DNA of 64,000 bases from Prosthecobacter vanneervenii (GTDB lineage: Bacteria > Verrucomicrobiota > Verrucomicrobiia > Verrucomicrobiales > Verrucomicrobiaceae), in NCBI RefSeq assembly GCF_014203095.1, contig NZ_JACHIG010000001.1, positions 1,302,001-1,366,000 on the forward strand. The letters run 5' to 3'. The stretch's first letter is position 1; every line of letters begins with the position of its first letter. The position numbers and the translations under genes are program-made. This document shows, in pieces, positions 3,510 to 56,919 of the stretch. A model generated the notes under the pieces. The model searched no databases and was not told the DNA's origin. It was given only the letters and a program-made list of their open reading frames with translations.

Positions 3510-3592
3510 AATGGCGGAGAGGGGGCGTCCCGATCCCTCACGCGCTCGCAAGGCCCAGCGCGCCCGCGCTGCCAACAAGCTTTGTTTTTACC
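3510..3592. repeat. Dispersed palindrome P2 copy
   Basis: The core GGGGCGTCCCGATCCCTCA plus the flank reading CGCGCTCGCAAGGCCCAGCGCGCCCGCGC and then GCCAACAAGC is shared, in inverse orientation, with 14.64-14.73 kb. It sits in the 428-bp gap 3304-3731, where I find no convincing gene. Confidence 0.6.
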
Positions 3593-12321: not shown

Positions 12322-12362
12322 GAGGGATTGGGAAGATCCCAGCCCGCCCGAGGGTGGGCTGC
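12322..12362. repeat. Degenerate P2-like palindrome plus hairpin
   Basis: GAGGGATTGGGAAGATCCCAGCC resembles the inverse orientation of repeat P2. It is followed at once by a stem CAGCCCGCCC...GGGTGGGCTG. Both lie in the divergent promoter gap 12149-12486. Confidence 0.5.
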
Positions 12363-14544: not shown

Positions 14545-14569
14545 GGGCGAAGGCCCGAGCCGCCGGAGG

Positions 14570-14726
14570 GCGAGCATCTTGATCCCCACACAGGGCGTGT
14601 GTTCGCGGATTGGTGGGGTGATGACGCGAGTGCGCTGGGCGATGCGGTAAACAAGGTTTGTTGGCAGCGCAGGAGCGCTGGGCGTTGCGTGCGCGTGAGG
14701 GATCGGAACGATCCCTCTCAGCCGGT
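14570..14726. repeat. P1 and P2 dispersed palindromes, inverse orientation
   Basis: GATCTTGATCCCC-type sequence with the flank ACACAGGGCGTGTGTTCGCGG (about 14574-14609) is the reverse complement of P1. GAGGGATCGGAACGATCCCTC at about 14697-14718 is P2, with the flank AACAAGGTTTGTTGGCAGCGC upstream. The pair fills the gap between two convergent genes. Confidence 0.7.
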
Positions 14727-14771
14727 GCGCAGGCGTCTAAAGATCAGACACGTTTTCGGCTGTGTGTGGCA

Positions 14772-22224: not shown

Positions 22225-23367
22225 ATGTCTATGAAAACAACAATCCTATCTGTCATTCTTTTCACCACAACTTTGCCAGCCTTTGCGGAGGACGGCACTT
22301 CATCCAAAACCGCCGCTGCGGCAAGCGCTGCACTGGCAAAGGAATCTGAGGACTCGAAGGAGTCTGAGGAGTCCAAGAAGGAGGACTCAAAGGAGTCGGA
22401 AGACTCCAAGAAAGAGGACTCCCAAAAAGCCGAAGACGCCAAGAGCGTGGCCATGAAGGCGGAGCAAAACGCCCAAAAGGCGGAGGAAGCCAGGATCGCG
22501 GCCACGAAAGCGGCAGAAGCTGCCAAAGCCGCGGCCCTCAAGGCGGAGGATGATGTGAGGACGACAGCGGCTAAAGAAGTGGAGGATGCCAAAAAGGCCG
22601 ACGAAGCCAGGAGCACGGCGTCCAAGGCGGCGGAGGACTCCAAGAAAGCGGAGGACTCCAGGACCACCGCCACCAAGACAGCGGAGGCTGCCAAAGAAGC
22701 GGCCAGCAAAGCGGCTGAGGACTACAAGAAGGCGACCGAAACAGCCGCGGCTGACGCCAAAAAAGCCGCAGAGGCAAAGGCCGAAGCTGATAAGGATCCG
22801 AAAAATACCGGCAAGGCCGATGCCGCAAAGCTGGCTGCCATCAGGGCTGCGGATGACACAAAGCTGGTCGATGCCACCAAGACTGCCGCCGCCAGAGCTG
22901 CAGAGGAGGCCCAGAAGGCCGAGGAGGCCAGGAGCGCTGCCGCGAAAGCAGCCGATGCCGCCAAGGCCACAGCCACAAAGGCGGCGTCTGACGCCCAGAT
23001 AGCCGAGGCGAACCGGATCGCCTCCGTCAAGGCGGCGGAAGCCGCGAAGCTGGCGGTCACCAGGGCGGCCGATGCGGCCCAGAAAGCCTACGACGCCATG
23101 ATGGCTGCCATGAAGGAAGCCTATGACGCCAAGCTGACCGCCGAGTCTTCGCTGGCGGCCTACATGGAGGTCACGGGCACCACGGCCACTCCGAGCTGGA
23201 GCACGGGCGCGCCCACAGACTCGGGCACCGCAACGAGTGCGATCTCTGCCGTGAGCGCCGCCCCCGGTGCACCGGCCCCTCCAGTGACGCTGCTGGCCGC
23301 CTTTGCCGGAGTGCTGGCGCTGCGCCAGGCCCGTGGCAAGCGCCGCAACAAGGCCCAGGAGGCGTAA
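22225..23367 (+). CDS. Secreted Ala/Lys/Glu-rich helical protein with C-terminal hydrophobic anchor
   Basis: The product has 380 residues from the ATG at 22225 (a second ATG lies two codons later). A Sec signal ends near PAFAEDG. Residues about 30-310 consist almost wholly of Ala, Lys, Glu, Asp, Ser and Thr in repeated phrases such as AAEAAKAAALKAED, suggesting one long helix or coiled coil like TolA or LEA proteins. The C-terminus has a Pro-rich spacer (PGAPAPP), a hydrophobic run VTLLAAFAGVLAL and a basic tail RQARGKRRNK, the tripartite layout of PEP-CTERM-like sorting signals, though no PEP motif is present. It is monocistronic. Function is unknown; an envelope or stalk structural role is a guess. 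Confidence 0.75.
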   Translation: MSMKTTILSVILFTTTLPAFAEDGTSSKTAAAASAALAKESEDSKESEESKKEDSKESEDSKKEDSQKAEDAKSVAMKAEQNAQKAEEARIAATKAAEAAKAAALKAEDDVRTTAAKEVEDAKKADEARSTASKAAEDSKKAEDSRTTATKTAEAAKEAASKAAEDYKKATETAAADAKKAAEAKAEADKDPKNTGKADAAKLAAIRAADDTKLVDATKTAAARAAEEAQKAEEARSAAAKAADAAKATATKAASDAQIAEANRIASVKAAEAAKLAVTRAADAAQKAYDAMMAAMKEAYDAKLTAESSLAAYMEVTGTTATPSWSTGAPTDSGTATSAISAVSAAPGAPAPPVTLLAAFAGVLALRQARGKRRNKAQEA

Positions 23368-23440
23368 TGCCGCGCGCCGCTGGAAACGGGTCTCCAGGTT
23401 GAAAGCCAGCCCTTCCATGCGGCCCGCCCGCACTCTGGCG

Positions 23441-23587
23441 TGAGGAATCGTCCCGGTCCCTCACGCGCACTCAAAGACCAGCGTTTTCACGTCTCCACAA
23501 AGCCGGGCCAACGCATCATCCAGCGACCTCGCACCACCACGAAGCCGCTGCAAGGAGGGGGGATCAAGAGGATCCCCCCTTCGTCGG
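23441..23587. repeat. P2 and P1 dispersed palindromes, diverged copies
   Basis: GAGGAATCGTCCCGGTCCCTCACGCGC (from 23442) is P2 with two changes and the usual AAAGACCAGCG flank. GGGGGGATCAAGAGGATCCCCCC (from 23557) is P1. They occupy the 355-bp gap 23368-23722. Confidence 0.65.
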
Positions 23588-23722
23588 CTCGGGCCTTCAC
23601 CTTCAGACCCATTTTCAGCCCCTCAGGGTCTGGCTCATCACACGCGGCGGGCCTGACAGGTGCGCCTCTCATGCCCCCACCCGCGCATTGTCATTTGCAG
23701 AGGCTGCGTCACACTCTGCGCC

Positions 23723-27104: not shown

Positions 27105-27416
27105 TCCGGCAGGGTCGGGTGATGCGCGTGAGGATCAAGATGCTCCCCCCCTCAGCCGATGGCGCGCATGACGCACACACACTCACGGCACCACGGGCTG
27201 GGCGTCGGCGAGGTTGAGATTGAACTGGATGATGGCGGGCGGACGGCTGACGATGTCGCAGCGGGTGATGGTGCCGGTCAGGGTGGCGATGCCACCAAAG
27301 TGCGCCGCGCCGCAGCGCATTACGCGCAGGGCTGACGAATCAGCCCGAGAATGGAAGAGGGCCGGGACGCCGCATCGTGGCGCAATCAAGCCAGGGTGCG
27401 GGAGCGCCGGGCCTCT
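27105..27416. other. Intergenic stretch with diverged P1 and a possible gene remnant
   Basis: GAGGATCAAGATGCTCCCCCC near 27131 resembles P1. At 27215-27336 on the plus strand an open frame ends RRAAAHYAQG-stop, nearly the last codons of the SnoaL-like gene at 24.07 kb. On the minus strand the same DNA reads a plausible short peptide ending NLADAQPVVP. Either could be a broken gene. Confidence 0.35.
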
Positions 27417-34140: not shown

Positions 34141-34719
34141 GAGGTGCGGTGGGTGGAGGGTGAAAGGCGTGCTGCGGTGCGCGGGCGCACGCGGCGGGGA
34201 CGGTGTATGAACGGCTGGGGTGCGGGGGATGTTAGAGGAAGGGGGCGGGGCGTGGGGGGCAGCGGGATCGTTTTTGGGCTCGTTTGCCTGCTCTGACTCG
34301 TGCTGGATCCCATCGCGGGCGCGGGGCCGGGCGGCTGTGGGCATGTGCGGGGCTAGGTCGCGGGAGGTGGAGCAGTGTCGGCGGCGGCGGGGTGAAGGGA
34401 GGCGGCGGGGTGTAGAGAGACGGCGGGGTGCGGGGCGATGCGGTGCTGGCGTGTGGCGCGGGGCCTGGGGGCGGATCTTCGTTTCAAGCGCGGCCGGCAG
34501 GTGCGGGCGGGGGCTGCGGGGTCGCACTCCCCTGCCCCGGTGGGCTGAGGGAATCGAGAGCGGGCATGCGGGCGTCCGGGTCCTTTTTCATGGGCGGGTG
34601 CGGTCTGGCAGGTGATAAAAAGCACTTCACGGGCCGGGGCTTTCAAGATTCCTGCATTTTGCCCCGCCCACCGCCACCGCCGCTAGGGCTGGGACAGGTG
34701 GGGTGTATGCAGTGCAGGC

Positions 34720-35400
34720 CCCAGCGCTCTCTCACAGCCACGCACCTTTCTGCCCCGCAATGCCCAGCGCTCTCGCTCCATCCGCGAACACGCCGCAGGT
34801 GTGGGGATCAAGATGATCCCCCTCCGTCGCTGCGGCAAAGCCTCCGGCGGAGTGGGATCGTCCCGATCCCTCAACGCTCACGCAAAGACCAGCGCTCACG
34901 CGTCTGCACAAAGGGCCGGGGTCGCATAGACCAGCGCTCACGCACAGCCGCTCACCTTTCCGCCCCGCAATGCCCAGCGCGGCCGCTCCATCCGCAAACA
35001 CGCGCCTTGTGTGGGGATCAAGATGATCCCCCTCCGTCGCTGGGACGAAGCTGCCGTGTGCGAAGCCTCTGGCGGAGAGGGATCGTCCCGATCCCACACG
35101 TGCTCGCAAAGACCAGCGCTCACGCGTAGCCGCCCACCTTTCTGCCCGCAATGCTCAGCGCTCTCGCTTCATTCCGCAAACACACGCCCTGTGTGGGGAT
35201 CAAGATGATCCCCCTCCGTCGCTGGGGCGAAGCTGCCGTGGACGAAGCCTCCGGCGGAGAGGGATCGTCCCGATCCCTCAACGCTCCGCGATCACCCAGT
35301 ATTCCGCGTCTGCCAAAGGGCCGGGGGGTGCGCAAAGACCAGCTCTCAAGCGCAGCCGCGCACCTTTCTGCCCCGCAAAGCCCAGCCGCCCTGGTGTCAG
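34720..35400. repeat. Array of composite P1-P2 palindromic repeats
   Basis: Three composite units contain P1 (GGGGATCAAGATGATCCCC at 34803, 35013 and 35195) followed 40-60 bp later by P2 (GGGATCGTCCCGATCCC at about 34854, 35080 and 35261). Each is flanked by GACCAGCGCTCACGC-like and TTTCTGCCCCGCAATGCCCAGCG-like sequences. The 1.27-kb gap 34141-35414 holds this array and no convincing gene. Confidence 0.9.
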
Positions 35401-35414
35401 CCCTATCCCGGCAA

Positions 35415-35609
35415 CTACGCCGCCGCCGGCCGCACCACAAAGGCCTCCTCCACCTGCCAGCTGCGCGGCCCGGCATAGACCACCTTGCCCTCGATGTCCG
35501 CACTGTCGATGATCCGCACCTCCACGGCTTTGTACAACGGCGAAAGCGGATGCAGATCGCCCACATCGGGGTGGGATGGCAAAACAAGTGGCTCAAAGGA
35601 GGGCTTCAT
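35415..35609 (-). CDS. Small hypothetical protein
   Basis: The product has 64 residues from the ATG at 35609 (the open frame extends to 35660). The sequence MKPSFEPLVLPSHPDVGDLH and the strand-rich AVEVRIIDSADIEGKVVYA look like a compact beta domain. It begins after a repeat array and has no recognised family. Its protein-like composition contrasts with the arginine-rich spurious frames around it, which is my reason to include it. Confidence 0.5.
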   Translation of the reverse strand: MKPSFEPLVLPSHPDVGDLHPLSPLYKAVEVRIIDSADIEGKVVYAGPRSWQVEEAFVVRPAAA

Positions 35610-35873
35610 GGGGGGAGGAGCGAGGGGGTTAATTTTGGGAGTGGAATGACCTGGCAACACCCAAACTCTAGCCCTCCACCTCAGAAGATAACACTAAGGG
35701 TTCGCTTAATTTCCCTAGACTGATTCATGACCCCTCATCGCTAAAGATTCGGCGAATGCCGCCACACCGATGCAGCGCAGCAGGAGCATGTCATAGATGC
35801 GCCCTAGCCACAGCGAACCGCCGCAGTGCAGCAGCATAAGAGCAGCAGCACCACCAGTGAACCGCCGACCGCC

Positions 35874-37738: not shown

Positions 37739-38797
37739 ATGTCCCTCTGGCTCATCCGCGCAGGCCGTCACGGCGAATTTGAATCCAAATTTTTTGAGGA
37801 GGGTCGTGTCTACGTGACGTGGGGCGATCTACAGCTCAACCTCTCCAAACTGGAGGGACGCGAGGAGCTGCTGAAGGCGCTGGCGGAAGTCTACAAGGAC
37901 GCCAAACTCAACAAGCTGCGCAACTGGGCGGGGCAGCTCTGGCCCTTTGCGCACGCCATGCAAAAGGGCGACCTCGTGGTGCTGCCGAGCAAGACGCAGC
38001 AGAGCATCTACGTGGGGGAGATCACCGGAGACTACCACTACGAGCCCAAGGGGCCCAATCCCTTTTACCACTACCGCACCGTGAAGTGGATCGGCGAGGC
38101 GATCCCCCGCCAGCGCTTTGGCCAGGATCTGCTGCATTCCCTGGGCGCCTTCCTCACCATCTGCCGCATCCAGCGCAACAACGCTGAGGCACGCCTGAAA
38201 GCCATGAAGACCAGCGGCTGGGGCGAAGATCCCGGCAAGAAAGGGATCAAAGTGAAAACGAAAACCACCGCAGCGGCAGCCGAGGTGGAGGAGGAGCTGG
38301 ACACCGAAGACATCGATCTGGAGCAGGAAGGGCTGGACCGCATCGCCATGCTCATCGAGTCCAAGTTTGCCGGGCACCATCTCACGCGGCTGGTGGAAGG
38401 TCTGCTGCAGGCGCAGGGCTACACCACCTACCGCAGCCCGGAGGGCGCAGATGGCGGCGCAGACATTCTGGCTGGCATGGGCGCGCTGGGCTTTGGCTCT
38501 CCGCAGCTTTGCGTGGAGGTGAAATCTGAGTCCTCCCCGATCGACCGGCCCACCGTGGACAAGCTGCTGGGGGCGATGAGCAAATTCAGCGCGCCGCAGG
38601 GGCTCTTTGTCTCCTGGGGCGGCTTCAGACAAAACGTGCAGAAGGAGCTGGCCCAGAGCTTTTTCAAAGTGCGCCTCTGGACGCGCAAGGAGCTGCTGGA
38701 CGCGCTCTTTGCCCACTACGACAAGCTGGATGCCGACTTGAAAGCCGAGTTGCCTCTGAAGCGCATCTGGACCGTGGCCGCACAGGAGGAGGAATGA
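37739..38797 (+). CDS. Restriction endonuclease: EVE/PUA-like N-terminus plus Mrr-type nuclease domain
   Basis: This 352-residue protein begins SLWLIRAGRHGEFE and continues through VYVTWGDLQLNL and MQKGDLVVLPS, the pattern of EVE/PUA-like modified-base readers (about 1-125). An acidic, Lys-rich linker leads to a nuclease domain (about 215-330) with HHLTRLVEGLLQAQGYTTY, a GADGGADILA motif with the catalytic Asp, and LCVEVKSES, the ExK active-site strand, then a QxK-less tail. Combined domains suggest cleavage of DNA with modified bases (type IV-like). A strong SD (GGAGGAGGAAT) near its end leads into the next gene. Confidence 0.82.
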   Translation: MSLWLIRAGRHGEFESKFFEEGRVYVTWGDLQLNLSKLEGREELLKALAEVYKDAKLNKLRNWAGQLWPFAHAMQKGDLVVLPSKTQQSIYVGEITGDYHYEPKGPNPFYHYRTVKWIGEAIPRQRFGQDLLHSLGAFLTICRIQRNNAEARLKAMKTSGWGEDPGKKGIKVKTKTTAAAAEVEEELDTEDIDLEQEGLDRIAMLIESKFAGHHLTRLVEGLLQAQGYTTYRSPEGADGGADILAGMGALGFGSPQLCVEVKSESSPIDRPTVDKLLGAMSKFSAPQGLFVSWGGFRQNVQKELAQSFFKVRLWTRKELLDALFAHYDKLDADLKAELPLKRIWTVAAQEEE

Positions 38798-48650: not shown

Positions 48651-48777
48651 GTGACTTGAGGGGATGTGTGGCTGGCCTGTCGGGGCAGGACTGCCCCGGT
48701 TGCCGGCATGGGCCAGTCGATTATTTCCTCGCCAAAGCGCAGGGTTTTGCTTGGGTAGGCTGGGTGGCATCTCTCTT

Positions 48778-51282
48778 ATGGCAAAATCTCCGGCTCCGTC
48801 TTCCAAGCGTCTTGTGCGCTACTTTGTTTCCTACACGCGCACGGATGGCGATCTGCCTGAAAAGCTGCTCAAGGAGCTGGACAAGCTCTTTGGCGCCTGC
48901 GCGGAGTTTGAGTTTAAGCGCTGGCAGGACACGCACATCCTCCCGGGCGAGAAGTGGCATGCGGAGATCCAGGGCGCGATCGAAGAATGTGATTTTGGCC
49001 TGCTGCTGGTGAGTCCGGCGTTTCTCGGGAATGCCTACATCAGCGAGCATGAGCTGCCGCATTTTGTGAACGGAAAGAAGCTCTGCCTGCCGGTGGGCCT
49101 GTGCCGCATCAGCCTGGAAAACCATGATCTGAAGGGGCTGCAGGAAACTCAAATCTACCTGCACGTGCCTGCACGCGGCAAGCATGGGAAGGCCTTTGAT
49201 CAGTTTGGCAGCGCGAAGACGCAGGCGGAGTTTGCCTACACGCTGCATGAGAGGATCATCGCACGCCTGAAGAAGAGCCTCGGCGAAAAGACGCCTGCGC
49301 CTGCCCTGGCGCAGCCTGCCACCAAGCCTGCGGAAAGCACGCGCGACAACCTGCCGCGGCTCATGCATTTCTATGGGCGGCAGAAGGAGCTGGAGGTCAT
49401 CGCCAAGGCTTTGCTGCCACAGACGCGGACCTGGGGCGTGCTGATTGACGGGCCGGGGGGCATGGGCAAGACCTCGCTGGCAGTGCGTGCGGCGGAGCTG
49501 GCGCGGCCGCAGTTTGACCGGGTGCTGTTTGTCTCGACGAAAACTCAGAAGCTCACGCCGCAGGGAGCGGTGGCGCTGAGCCAGTCCATCGTGCCCGCGT
49601 ATCCAGAGCTGCTGAGCGAGACCGCGCGGCTGCTGGGGCTGGCGCATGCCAAGGAACTGCCTGAGGCGGAGCGCGCCGCTGTCATCAAGGCGGCGCTGGA
49701 AAAGGAAAAAGTGCTGCTCCTTTTTGACAACCTGGAGAACCTGGACAAGGCGCAGATGAACCTGCTCTATGAGTTCGTGGCGGACCTGCCGCCCAGCTGC
49801 AAGGCCATCGTGACGAGCCGCCGCCGCACGGATGTGGAGGCACGCCTCATCCGGCTGGAGAAGCTGGAGCAGGACGCAGCGCTGGAACTGCTGGAGGAGC
49901 TGGCCGCAGACCGCGAGCTGCTGCGCAAGGCCAGCACAGAGCAGCGGGTGGGCCTGTATGTGGAGACGGGGGGCAATCCCCTGCTGATGCGCTGGGTGGT
50001 GGGGCAGCTCGGGCGCGGGAGCTGCCGCAGCATCGCCGCAGCGCTGGAGCTGTGCCGCAAGGCGGGCGACAGCAATGACCCGCTGGAGTTCATCTTTGGC
50101 GATCTGCTGGAGACCTTTTCGCCGGCGGAGACGCAGGTGCTCGTGGCGCTGAGCTACTTCACGCAAAAGATCGAGGTGAAGCACATCGCCGAGGTGGCCA
50201 AGCTTTCGCAAACGGCGGCGCAGACGGCGCTGGGAGATCTGGCCAACCGGGCGCTGGTGATGCCGGATGAGAGGGAGGAGACCTTTGCGCTGGTGCCCAT
50301 GGTAGCGGATTTTCTGCGGGCCAGACGCCCCAAAGTCGTGGCAGAGACCGGCAGCCGCCTGGAGAAGCGCGCCCTGGCGCTGATCCTGGAAAACGGCTAC
50401 AGTAACCACGACTGCTTCCCCAAGCTGGACGCCGCCTGGCCCGTCGTGGCCCCGGCGCTGCGGCTCTTTCTGGCCGGGGACAATAAGCGGCTGCAGGAGG
50501 TGTGTGGTGCGCTTGCCAGCTTCCTCGACTTCACCGGCCGCTGGGATGAATGGCTGGCTCTCAGCCAGCAGGCGGAGGGCTGGGCGGTGGCGGCGGGAGA
50601 TCACCGCCATGCCGGATGGCGCGCCTATCAGGCAGGCTGGGTGCACTACCTGCGCTGGCAGGCAGAGGCCGTGCTGGCCAGTGCCGGGCGCGCGGCGCAG
50701 CACTGGCAGCGGGCCTTTCCCGCCGGTGGCACCGCGCAGGCAGGCCTACGGGAGCGAACGATGGCCCTGCGCCTGCGTGGCATTGGTCACCAATTGCAAA
50801 AGGACTACCCAGCAGCCACTGCCGCCTTTCGTGAAGTGGTGTATCTGCGCCGCCAACTGGGCGCCGAGAGCACCGATCTGGCGATGGCTCTGAATTCTCT
50901 CGCCTTTGCCGAGCGCTTATCGGGCGACCACGCCGCCGCCGAGCGAGACTACCATGAGGCCCTGCGCGTGGCCCAGGCGGTGAGCGACGACGAAGGCATC
51001 GCTATCTTCACGGGTAATCTGGCAGTGCTGGCCCTGGACCGCGAGGACTGGCCGCAGGCCGAGGCGCTGGCCCTCGAGGCACTGGCCTTGGCCGAGAAGT
51101 TGGGGCGGCAGGAATTGATCGCGGCAGACTGCCACCGCCTCGCCCTAGCCCTGGCCCGACAGGGGCACGGCGCTGAGGGGCTGCCCCATGCCCGCCGTGC
51201 GGTGGAGATCTACACCCGCCTCGGCTCGCCCAACCTTGCCGATGCGAAGAAGACGCTGGCGGAGTGTGAGGGAGAAGGATGA
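48778..51282 (+). CDS. TIR-NB-ARC-TPR protein (bacterial NLR-like, predicted antiphage STAND)
   Basis: The product has 834 residues from the ATG at 48778. TIR domain about 10-165: RYFVSYTRTDGD, a LLLVSPAFLGN segment and NAYISEHEL with candidate catalytic glutamates 90 and 92. STAND/NB-ARC ATPase follows: Walker A GPGGMGKTS (225-233), Walker B VLLLFDNLENL (about 312-322) and IVTSRRRTD sensor. From about 560 on there are TPR-like helices, e.g. ATAAFREVVYLRRQLG and GDHAAAERDYHEALRVA. In known systems the TPR region senses a phage protein, oligomerises the ATPase and activates TIR NADase. It is the likely core of the 47.6-52.7 kb module. Confidence 0.92.
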   Translation: MAKSPAPSSKRLVRYFVSYTRTDGDLPEKLLKELDKLFGACAEFEFKRWQDTHILPGEKWHAEIQGAIEECDFGLLLVSPAFLGNAYISEHELPHFVNGKKLCLPVGLCRISLENHDLKGLQETQIYLHVPARGKHGKAFDQFGSAKTQAEFAYTLHERIIARLKKSLGEKTPAPALAQPATKPAESTRDNLPRLMHFYGRQKELEVIAKALLPQTRTWGVLIDGPGGMGKTSLAVRAAELARPQFDRVLFVSTKTQKLTPQGAVALSQSIVPAYPELLSETARLLGLAHAKELPEAERAAVIKAALEKEKVLLLFDNLENLDKAQMNLLYEFVADLPPSCKAIVTSRRRTDVEARLIRLEKLEQDAALELLEELAADRELLRKASTEQRVGLYVETGGNPLLMRWVVGQLGRGSCRSIAAALELCRKAGDSNDPLEFIFGDLLETFSPAETQVLVALSYFTQKIEVKHIAEVAKLSQTAAQTALGDLANRALVMPDEREETFALVPMVADFLRARRPKVVAETGSRLEKRALALILENGYSNHDCFPKLDAAWPVVAPALRLFLAGDNKRLQEVCGALASFLDFTGRWDEWLALSQQAEGWAVAAGDHRHAGWRAYQAGWVHYLRWQAEAVLASAGRAAQHWQRAFPAGGTAQAGLRERTMALRLRGIGHQLQKDYPAATAAFREVVYLRRQLGAESTDLAMALNSLAFAERLSGDHAAAERDYHEALRVAQAVSDDEGIAIFTGNLAVLALDREDWPQAEALALEALALAEKLGRQELIAADCHRLALALARQGHGAEGLPHARRAVEIYTRLGSPNLADAKKTLAECEGEG

Positions 51283-56712: not shown

Positions 56713-56825
56713 GTGTGTGAGGGATCATCTTGATCCGACCCACATGGCGTGTGTTTGCGGAGGCACGGGGGCGCTGGGAGATGGGGGTGCGTGAGGGATC
56801 GGGACGATCCCTCTCCGCCGGAGTG
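56713..56825. repeat. P1/P2 palindromes, inverse orientation
   Basis: GGGATCATCTTGATCC near 56721 is inverse P1 with the GGCGTGTGTTTGCGG flank. GAGGGATCGGGACGATCCCTCTCCGCCGG near 56793 is inverse P2. The region 56654-57374 has no convincing gene. Confidence 0.75.
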
Positions 56826-56919
56826 CGCGCTGGCCGCATGGGATGCTGGCTTTCTCACTCGTGAGCGCCGTTTGCGGCTGTGCGTGGGATGAGATGTGAG
56901 CCCATCTGGGAGCTCACGC

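Follow-up and report, generated by a model that had tools for sequence, protein, structure and literature searches.

The alternation of two small palindromes, P1 and P2, at 34.7-35.4 kb of a 64-kb stretch of Prosthecobacter vanneervenii DNA (hereafter the window, to whose forward strand all window positions refer) raises the question of which kind of mobile element spread these hairpins and which one carries them now. The composite array (34721-35386, plus strand) reads linker-P1-P2-linker-P1-P2-linker-P1-P2-linker and has no recognised terminal inverted repeat (TIR) on either side, the TIR scores lying below threshold. P1 stands on the minus strand at 34803-34821, with its GGAG foot on that strand, and again at 35013-35031 and 35195-35213. 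P2 stands on the plus strand at 34854-34870 (GGAG foot at 34849-34852), 35079-35095 and 35261-35277. All six hairpins, spread over 34803-35277, are exact matches, and the three alternating copies described in an earlier note on this DNA are thus present. The conserved flanks that it had also mentioned correspond to three 126-nt direct repeats within which the P1/P2 pairs sit, with spacings of 210 and 182, the second repeat being 86% and the third 71% like the first.

Additional copies were recovered at the places previously named in the window, i.e. at 1745, 3516, 12324 (weak), 14565, 23439, 27131 and 56716. The copy at 1745-1844 is a degenerate hairpin pair with no assigned strand and no recognised TIR. 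Motif matches to single hairpins are found at 3516-3537 (P2-type, plus strand), 12324-12345 (the weak one, minus strand) and 27131-27152 (P1-type, minus strand). Two P1-P2 pairs on the minus strand have one TIR end each: that at 14565-14771 comprises hairpins at 14565-14720 and a TIR end at 14744-14771 (26 bits), and that at 56716-56889 comprises hairpins at 56716-56816, including the fourth exact P2 copy of the window (56795-56811), and a weak TIR end at 56862-56889 (16.6 bits). The only complete window copy is a TIR-bounded element at 23368-23630 (plus strand), with P2 (23444) and P1 (23559) inside a hairpin pair that spans 23439-23581. It begins immediately 3' of the stop codon of a gene ending at 23367, and its flanking 3-mers, TAA and TGG, are unmatched. 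No exact inverted repeat of at least 14 nt was found around three window copies, this element included, so the window TIRs are degenerate. With up to three mismatches on both strands, P1 has 10 matches in the window against 0.04 expected and P2 has 18 against 0.28, exact palindromes being counted once per strand and therefore on both strands. Two other genes of the window encode an 872-aa protein with TIR_2, NB-ARC/AAA and TPR domains, possibly a defence or signalling protein (48664-51282, plus strand), and a 352-aa protein with an Mrr-type restriction endonuclease domain (37739-38797, plus strand).

Read on the proper strand, P1 is GGAG-N-GGGATC-ATCTT-GATCCC and P2 is GGAG-N-GGGATC-GTCCC-GATCCC. 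As judged from these sequences, they are two sub-types of a single REP-like hairpin (GGAG-N-GGGATC-loop-GATCCC) with a four-base foot. The earlier note had proposed a genome-wide REP/BIME-like family with two hairpins and had called for a count of its copies. The hairpin occurs 80 times exactly in the genome (control 0) and 194 times with up to two mismatches, compared to 2 matches for the reversed-pattern control, and the family is accordingly abundant rather than restricted to few copies. The arrangement of the copies was established on 124 hairpins hand-picked among the matches listed in two overlapping listings; these form 68 clusters, 31 of which are singles. All 56 neighbours less than 400 nt apart are inverted and none is in tandem: 40 are feet-outward P1-P2 pairs, 15 feet-inward P1-P2 pairs and one a feet-inward P2-P2 pair. 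Start-to-start distances are 72-81 nt (11/40) or 118-123 nt (21/40) in most outward pairs, and 45 nt (7/15) or 60-61 nt (7/15) in the inward ones. One window unit folded as single-stranded DNA gave a z of -2.3, with one of 200 shuffles folding equally well. A short palindrome with many intergenic copies, forming inverted doublets of alternating orientation, is what characterizes REP, REPIN and BIME sequences.

The placement of the copies was examined on 62 distinct clusters, those close to locus ends being left out of the TIR and gene-placement counts as well as of the TIR-end counts in relatives. Genes were predicted with a simple gene finder based on codon usage, for which the window served as training set, and the gene calls are approximate. 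Only one cluster of 62 lies mostly within a predicted gene, compared to 72% of the same loci predicted as coding, which agrees with the extragenic position previously claimed for the family. For 58 clusters a gene was predicted on either side; the two genes are convergent in 34 cases, in tandem in 21 and divergent in 3. An intrinsic terminator was set aside because no T-run follows the stems by eye in the copies inspected. A scan of 34300-35700 against Rfam returned seven sub-threshold matches, none reaching the gathering score.

The mobilisation of the hairpins by a RAYT, raised as a possibility by the earlier note together with a search for such a gene, could be supported in relatives but not in the P. 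vanneervenii genome itself. This genome has 10 Y1_Tnp matches, five of them RAYT-like (L034-L038). By eye, L034, L036 and L038 are adjoined by clear palindromes of their own, those of L034 having a GGAG foot, while a GTAGG-type repeat is present downstream of L037 and a weaker palindrome pair at L035. P1 or P2, with up to four substitutions, was found near none of the 10 Y1_Tnp loci, the sequence inspected reaching about 1.5 kb from them, or less where a contig ends. On contig 14, two hairpin sites enclose a gap that was ruled out as the seat of a RAYT, as a ROK-like open reading frame occupies it by eye, and no RAYT is encoded by the 91 own sequences scanned alongside the loci of relatives.

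A scan of the genome collection for exact hairpins gave at least 108 loci; the best 80 of them are, by title, 79 from Verrucomicrobia or Prosthecobacter and one from Acidobacteria. Three of the 108 loci encode a RAYT: L190 (JAJTDU010000240.1), where it is intact, L163 (JAFLEI010000007.1), where it is frameshifted, and L237. The same genes are found in genomes G045, G042 and G051, and G042 has a second one. In L190 a hairpin overlaps the RAYT stop codon and degenerate hairpins lie upstream, and in L163 hairpins lie all around the gene. The RAYT of these relatives reaches 86.7 bits with the NCBIfam model REP_Tyr_transpos (cut-off 80) and matches Pfam Y1_Tnp. Among the matches listed, those to this RAYT with at least 75% identity are confined to three of 48 same-genus genomes (G042 twice, G045, G051), the next-best match being at 56%, and P. 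vanneervenii has no close homologue, only matches at 40-48% identity. Exact hairpins stand on both sides of both copies in G042 and of that in G051; in G045 the second side was established by reading the sequence. A cognate RAYT, intact or broken, is thus flanked by P1/P2-type hairpins in 3/48 same-genus genomes. Since the exact hairpin itself occurs in 13/48 (and in 0/13 genomes of other genera), ten genomes have the hairpin without that RAYT. RAYT genes are varied in the genus, with up to 26 profile matches per genome, weak ones included, across the 48 genomes, and many have palindromes of their own.

The foot of P1 and P2 is GGAG and not the canonical GT[AG]G. According to the parts of PMC6006769 consulted, GT[AG]G is borne by the REPs of most RAYT subclasses, and two RAYT classes have atypical REP structures without it. 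The main texts of PMC2817692, PMC6006769, PMC3733652 and PMC8266576 do not contain GGAG, and GGAG, RAYT and REP were not found together as whole words in the literature searched, whose scope lay outside subscription journals and supplements. A total of 150 distinct RAYT segments from 169 loci were gathered, of which 87 could be classed by their flanking hairpins (GGAG 35, GTAG 29, GTGG 15, GTGA 3, GTAA 2, GTAC 2, GTTG 1) and 63 have no class. Within the segment by which the Escherichia coli protein contacts the foot, a Tyr is found in 34/35 GGAG RAYTs (the remaining one has Phe) versus 0/44 GTAG or GTGG RAYTs, and an Arg or Thr is found in 35/35 GGAG RAYTs at the place occupied by His in 41/44 of the others. 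These places correspond to E. coli residues 98 and 101 by alignment with 4er8, a numbering that is our own count from W94/Q95. The E. coli RAYT, a GTAG reader, has Phe at 98, which weakens a simple residue code. In a tree built without the foot-contact segment, GGAG requires a single change, and the branch at the root of the GGAG group is weakly supported. The correlation between residues and foot was dropped as independent proof of a code since the GGAG RAYTs differ by that single change; on this tree, the GGAG foot is a clade marker for one side of the RAYT tree in the genus.

Beyond the feet of the hairpins, sequence conservation continues as far as a motif close to TACCACG-N5-YTGAAAACGGGTCT, present in inverted orientation at the two ends. 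This TIR, 28 bp long and lying outside the hairpins, has 48 matches in the own genome with up to three mismatches (reversed control 0). At the loci examined, TIRs bound 27 own elements of 156-471 bp, 15 of which carry P1/P2-type hairpins (156-412 bp, mostly 218-265 bp). A loose search with up to six mismatches at other loci gave chance-like matches and was replaced by a weight matrix with a threshold of 8 bits, the background maximum being 4.9 bits in 181,931 shuffled windows. With this matrix, at least one TIR end was detected in 35/62 own clusters and both ends in 15; three of the 35 are barely above threshold and at odd distances. By our own count, the distance from the hairpin outwards to the TIR end is 47-53 or 65-77 nt for 43/50 ends. 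The remaining 27 clusters, the 34.7-kb array included, have no recognised TIR. At outward feet without TIR, the inner flank is retained at 60% identity or more in 19/48 cases, versus 0.03-0.23% of random window 24-mers, and part of the TIR-less copies therefore look decayed. One 412-bp element contains four hairpins within one TIR pair, so arrays can grow inside an element. The array at 34.7 kb, devoid of recognised TIR, is probably a locally amplified derivative.

The edges of the elements have the appearance of target-site duplications. Identical 3-mers flank 17/27 own elements delimited by the TIR pattern and 18/27 of the slightly different set delimited by the weight matrix, from which one own copy was dropped, compared to 0-1 at other offsets. 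The proportion is 15/25 for the elements of relatives (0-2 at other offsets), and 9/15 (pattern) or 10/15 (weight matrix) for the own elements with hairpins. All identical own edge 3-mers among those listed are TNA. When both sides are TNA (45 elements), the middle base is common in 33, against 0.29 expected per pair (P about 1e-9, treating the elements as independent); the duplication is thus of three bases and not two. Targeting of stop codons was rejected as the source of TNA, as the 7/27 elements that abut a stop exactly are close to the rough estimate for intergenic TNA insertion. These small, putatively non-coding elements satisfy the description of MITEs by their TIRs and their edge duplications, and the combination of 28-bp TIRs with 3-bp TNA duplications points to a MITE-like, DDE-type vehicle. 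Adjacent TIR elements separated by exactly 3 nt are found at L405:1215-1909, L458:461-1021 and L463:617-1231, an arrangement that would result if one element had used the duplicated TNA of its neighbour as insertion site. Another TIR element, 315 bp long, recurs with an almost unchanged interior at three loci (L407:1501-1815, L113:1574-1888 and L404:1209-1523), without P1/P2 and without match to the RAYT flanks examined.

The TIR pattern, with up to two mismatches, was found in 10/48 same-genus genomes (controls 0). In genome G021, a 1,133-bp element (L445:2-1134) is bounded by two of these TIRs (39.6 and 31.2 bits) and contains two frames, one of helix-turn-helix and one of DDE_3 type, the latter scoring 106 bits against an NCBIfam IS630 cut-off of 100. 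An autonomous element with the same TIRs, as expected for a MITE, is thus present in one relative. Its contig begins one base before the element, so that its duplication is unreadable. IS630 elements usually duplicate TA, and the TNA seen here in place of the TA of IS630-derived MITEs is a misfit for that family; the TIR element may work like an IS630 MITE, strict membership not being claimed. A 159-aa open reading frame with an HVH motif, IS200-like by eye, adjoins the IS630-family element (L445:1181-1660, minus strand). In genomes G012, G001 and G021, many TIR matches are located at 100-300 nt from a contig end, which is what assemblies interrupted by a longer, identical multi-copy element would show. 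No IS630-type element was seen among the TIR matches of the own genome, and its two DDE_Tnp_1 genes were ruled out as helpers, their ends being different. The DDE_Tnp_1 genes of L413 and L414 (own contigs 7 and 5) are near-identical, with inverted ends of type AGAGCCTGTTATTAACTTT.

The cargo of the TIR family is not limited to P1 and P2. The other own TIR elements have different interiors, and two of them, in L398 and L392, contain the repeat found beside the own RAYT L037 (82.5% and 81.1% identity over 143 nt). In relatives, on the 78 of 108 collection loci used, hairpin clusters with a TIR end number 1/23, 0/12 and 0/4 in the three genomes with the cognate RAYT (1/39 in all) and 1/18, 0/10, 3/8, 1/4, 0/4 and 0/1 in others. 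Since TIR ends beside hairpins are rare in relatives, carriage of the hairpin pair by the MITE would be mainly a feature of the P. vanneervenii lineage.

The REP/BIME reading holds, and in the own genome a MITE-like vehicle is better supported. The joint explanation that we regard as rather probable is that a RAYT-derived hairpin pair was captured by IS630-like TIR ends, spread by a DDE enzyme as a MITE-like element and then formed local arrays. Inverted P2-linker-P1 pairs with feet outward, of REPIN/BIME type, were probably made and spread via single-stranded DNA by a RAYT, a tyrosine transposase of the HUH/Y1 type, which would have been lost from the lineage of the own genome. A hairpin pair would have come to lie between the TIRs of an IS630-like transposon, and the MITE-like element would have been copied in trans by the DDE transposase, leaving TNA duplications. 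The pairs would then have multiplied locally, giving arrays such as that at 34.7-35.4 kb. We infer, rather than observe, movement itself, as well as the RAYT loss, the direction of capture, the assignment of enzymes to substrates and the local amplification, and the order of events is read from the distribution of the copies. Against the MITE vehicle stand the 27/62 clusters without TIR, the three clusters barely above threshold, the unmatched flanks of the element at 23368, the failure to find a helper among the own TIR matches and DDE_Tnp_1 genes, the TNA duplications in place of the TA usual for IS630 and the rarity of TIR ends beside hairpins in relatives.

A first alternative is a plain REPIN/BIME system, in which a RAYT, whether lost, unassembled or another one of the own genome acting in trans, spread all pairs, the TIR elements being mere insertion targets. 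The REP architecture with its inverted pairs, the cognate RAYT of relatives, the TIR-less clusters and the GGAG-footed palindromes of the own RAYT L034 are all in keeping with it. Nevertheless, the preferred hairpin-to-TIR distances (43/50 ends) fit one capture followed by copying and not many insertions, TNA duplications stand at 10/15 hairpin-bearing elements and the own genome has no close homologue of the cognate RAYT among the matches listed, which makes this explanation unlikely. Conversely, an ordinary MITE whose hairpins were never linked to a RAYT, those beside the RAYTs of relatives being due to chance or convergence, would account for the TIRs, the TNA duplications and the own RAYTs without adjoining P1/P2. 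It appears very improbable given that the exact 22-nt pattern stands beside the RAYT in three relatives, on both sides in two and by sequence reading in the third, and that a TIR end occurs at only 1/39 of the hairpin clusters examined in the cognate-RAYT genomes. Lastly, the hairpins could be non-mobile and maintained by selection as an RNA or DNA signal, be it a bidirectional terminator, a hairpin at the 3' end of mRNAs or a binding site for a protein. The excess of convergent (34/58) over divergent (3/58) neighbourhoods and the single-strand fold (z -2.3) would suit such a signal, but its patchy presence across species (13/48 same-genus genomes), the target duplications, the absence of Rfam families at cut-off in 34300-35700 and of T-runs by eye after the stems in the copies inspected leave it the least credible of the explanations weighed.

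The joint explanation by RAYT origin and DDE-type carriage can be extended more tentatively, at somewhat less than an even chance. The REP pair of a GGAG-reading RAYT would have changed vehicle to a DDE-type MITE (IS630-like, TNA-duplicating) and outlived its RAYT, and the TIR family, which also carries at least one further repeat linked to a RAYT (L398/L392), would be a general REP carrier in the genus. GGAG would then form its own guide class, recognised by a clade of RAYTs in which Tyr and Arg/Thr align with E. coli positions 98 and 101.

The hairpins share with the REPIN/BIME and RAYT (TnpA-REP) systems of Pseudomonas and Escherichia, as presented in the parts of the sources consulted, short intergenic hairpins with a four-base foot, inverted doublets, occasional tandem clusters, the position of the RAYT between copies, here in relatives, and a hairpin at the RAYT stop codon (PMC3116915, PMC2817692, PMC6006769). 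They differ by the foot (GGAG instead of the GT[AG]G of these sources), by the lack of a cognate RAYT found in the own genome and by the many pairs lying within TIR elements that bear target duplications. A second comparison is with IS630-derived MITEs such as Correia and RUP, named in PMC2817692. These are likewise small, non-coding and equipped with TIRs and target duplications, and the TIRs found here also delimit an IS630-family transposase element in a relative. In contrast to the usual TA, the duplication here is TNA (3 bp), and a RAYT-linked hairpin pair forms the interior. REP dimers within longer palindromes are reportedly found in Anabaena variabilis and Halothiobacillus neapolitanus. 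The portion of PMC3733652 consulted describes, for the two bacteria concerned, longer inverted repeats that regularly contain REP dimers; these palindromes were not found without REPs, and that portion mentions neither target duplication nor IS partner. The portions of PMC4596501 and PMC6382973 consulted, which concern other MITEs, contain nothing of the kind. To this precedent the present data add target duplications, an IS partner and, in relatives, a cognate RAYT, and TIR elements without P1/P2 exist here. For studying how the foot is read, the RAYTs of the genus form a natural series (flanking feet GTAG, GTGG, GTGA and GGAG). Overall, the hairpins look like relics of one kind of mobile element now carried by another, which hints at how hairpin repeats can persist once the enzyme responsible for their first spread is gone. 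Carriage by a DDE-type element that leaves target duplications would be a simple and testable answer both to the persistence of REPs without their transposase and to the question of why some REP dimers sit within longer inverted repeats.
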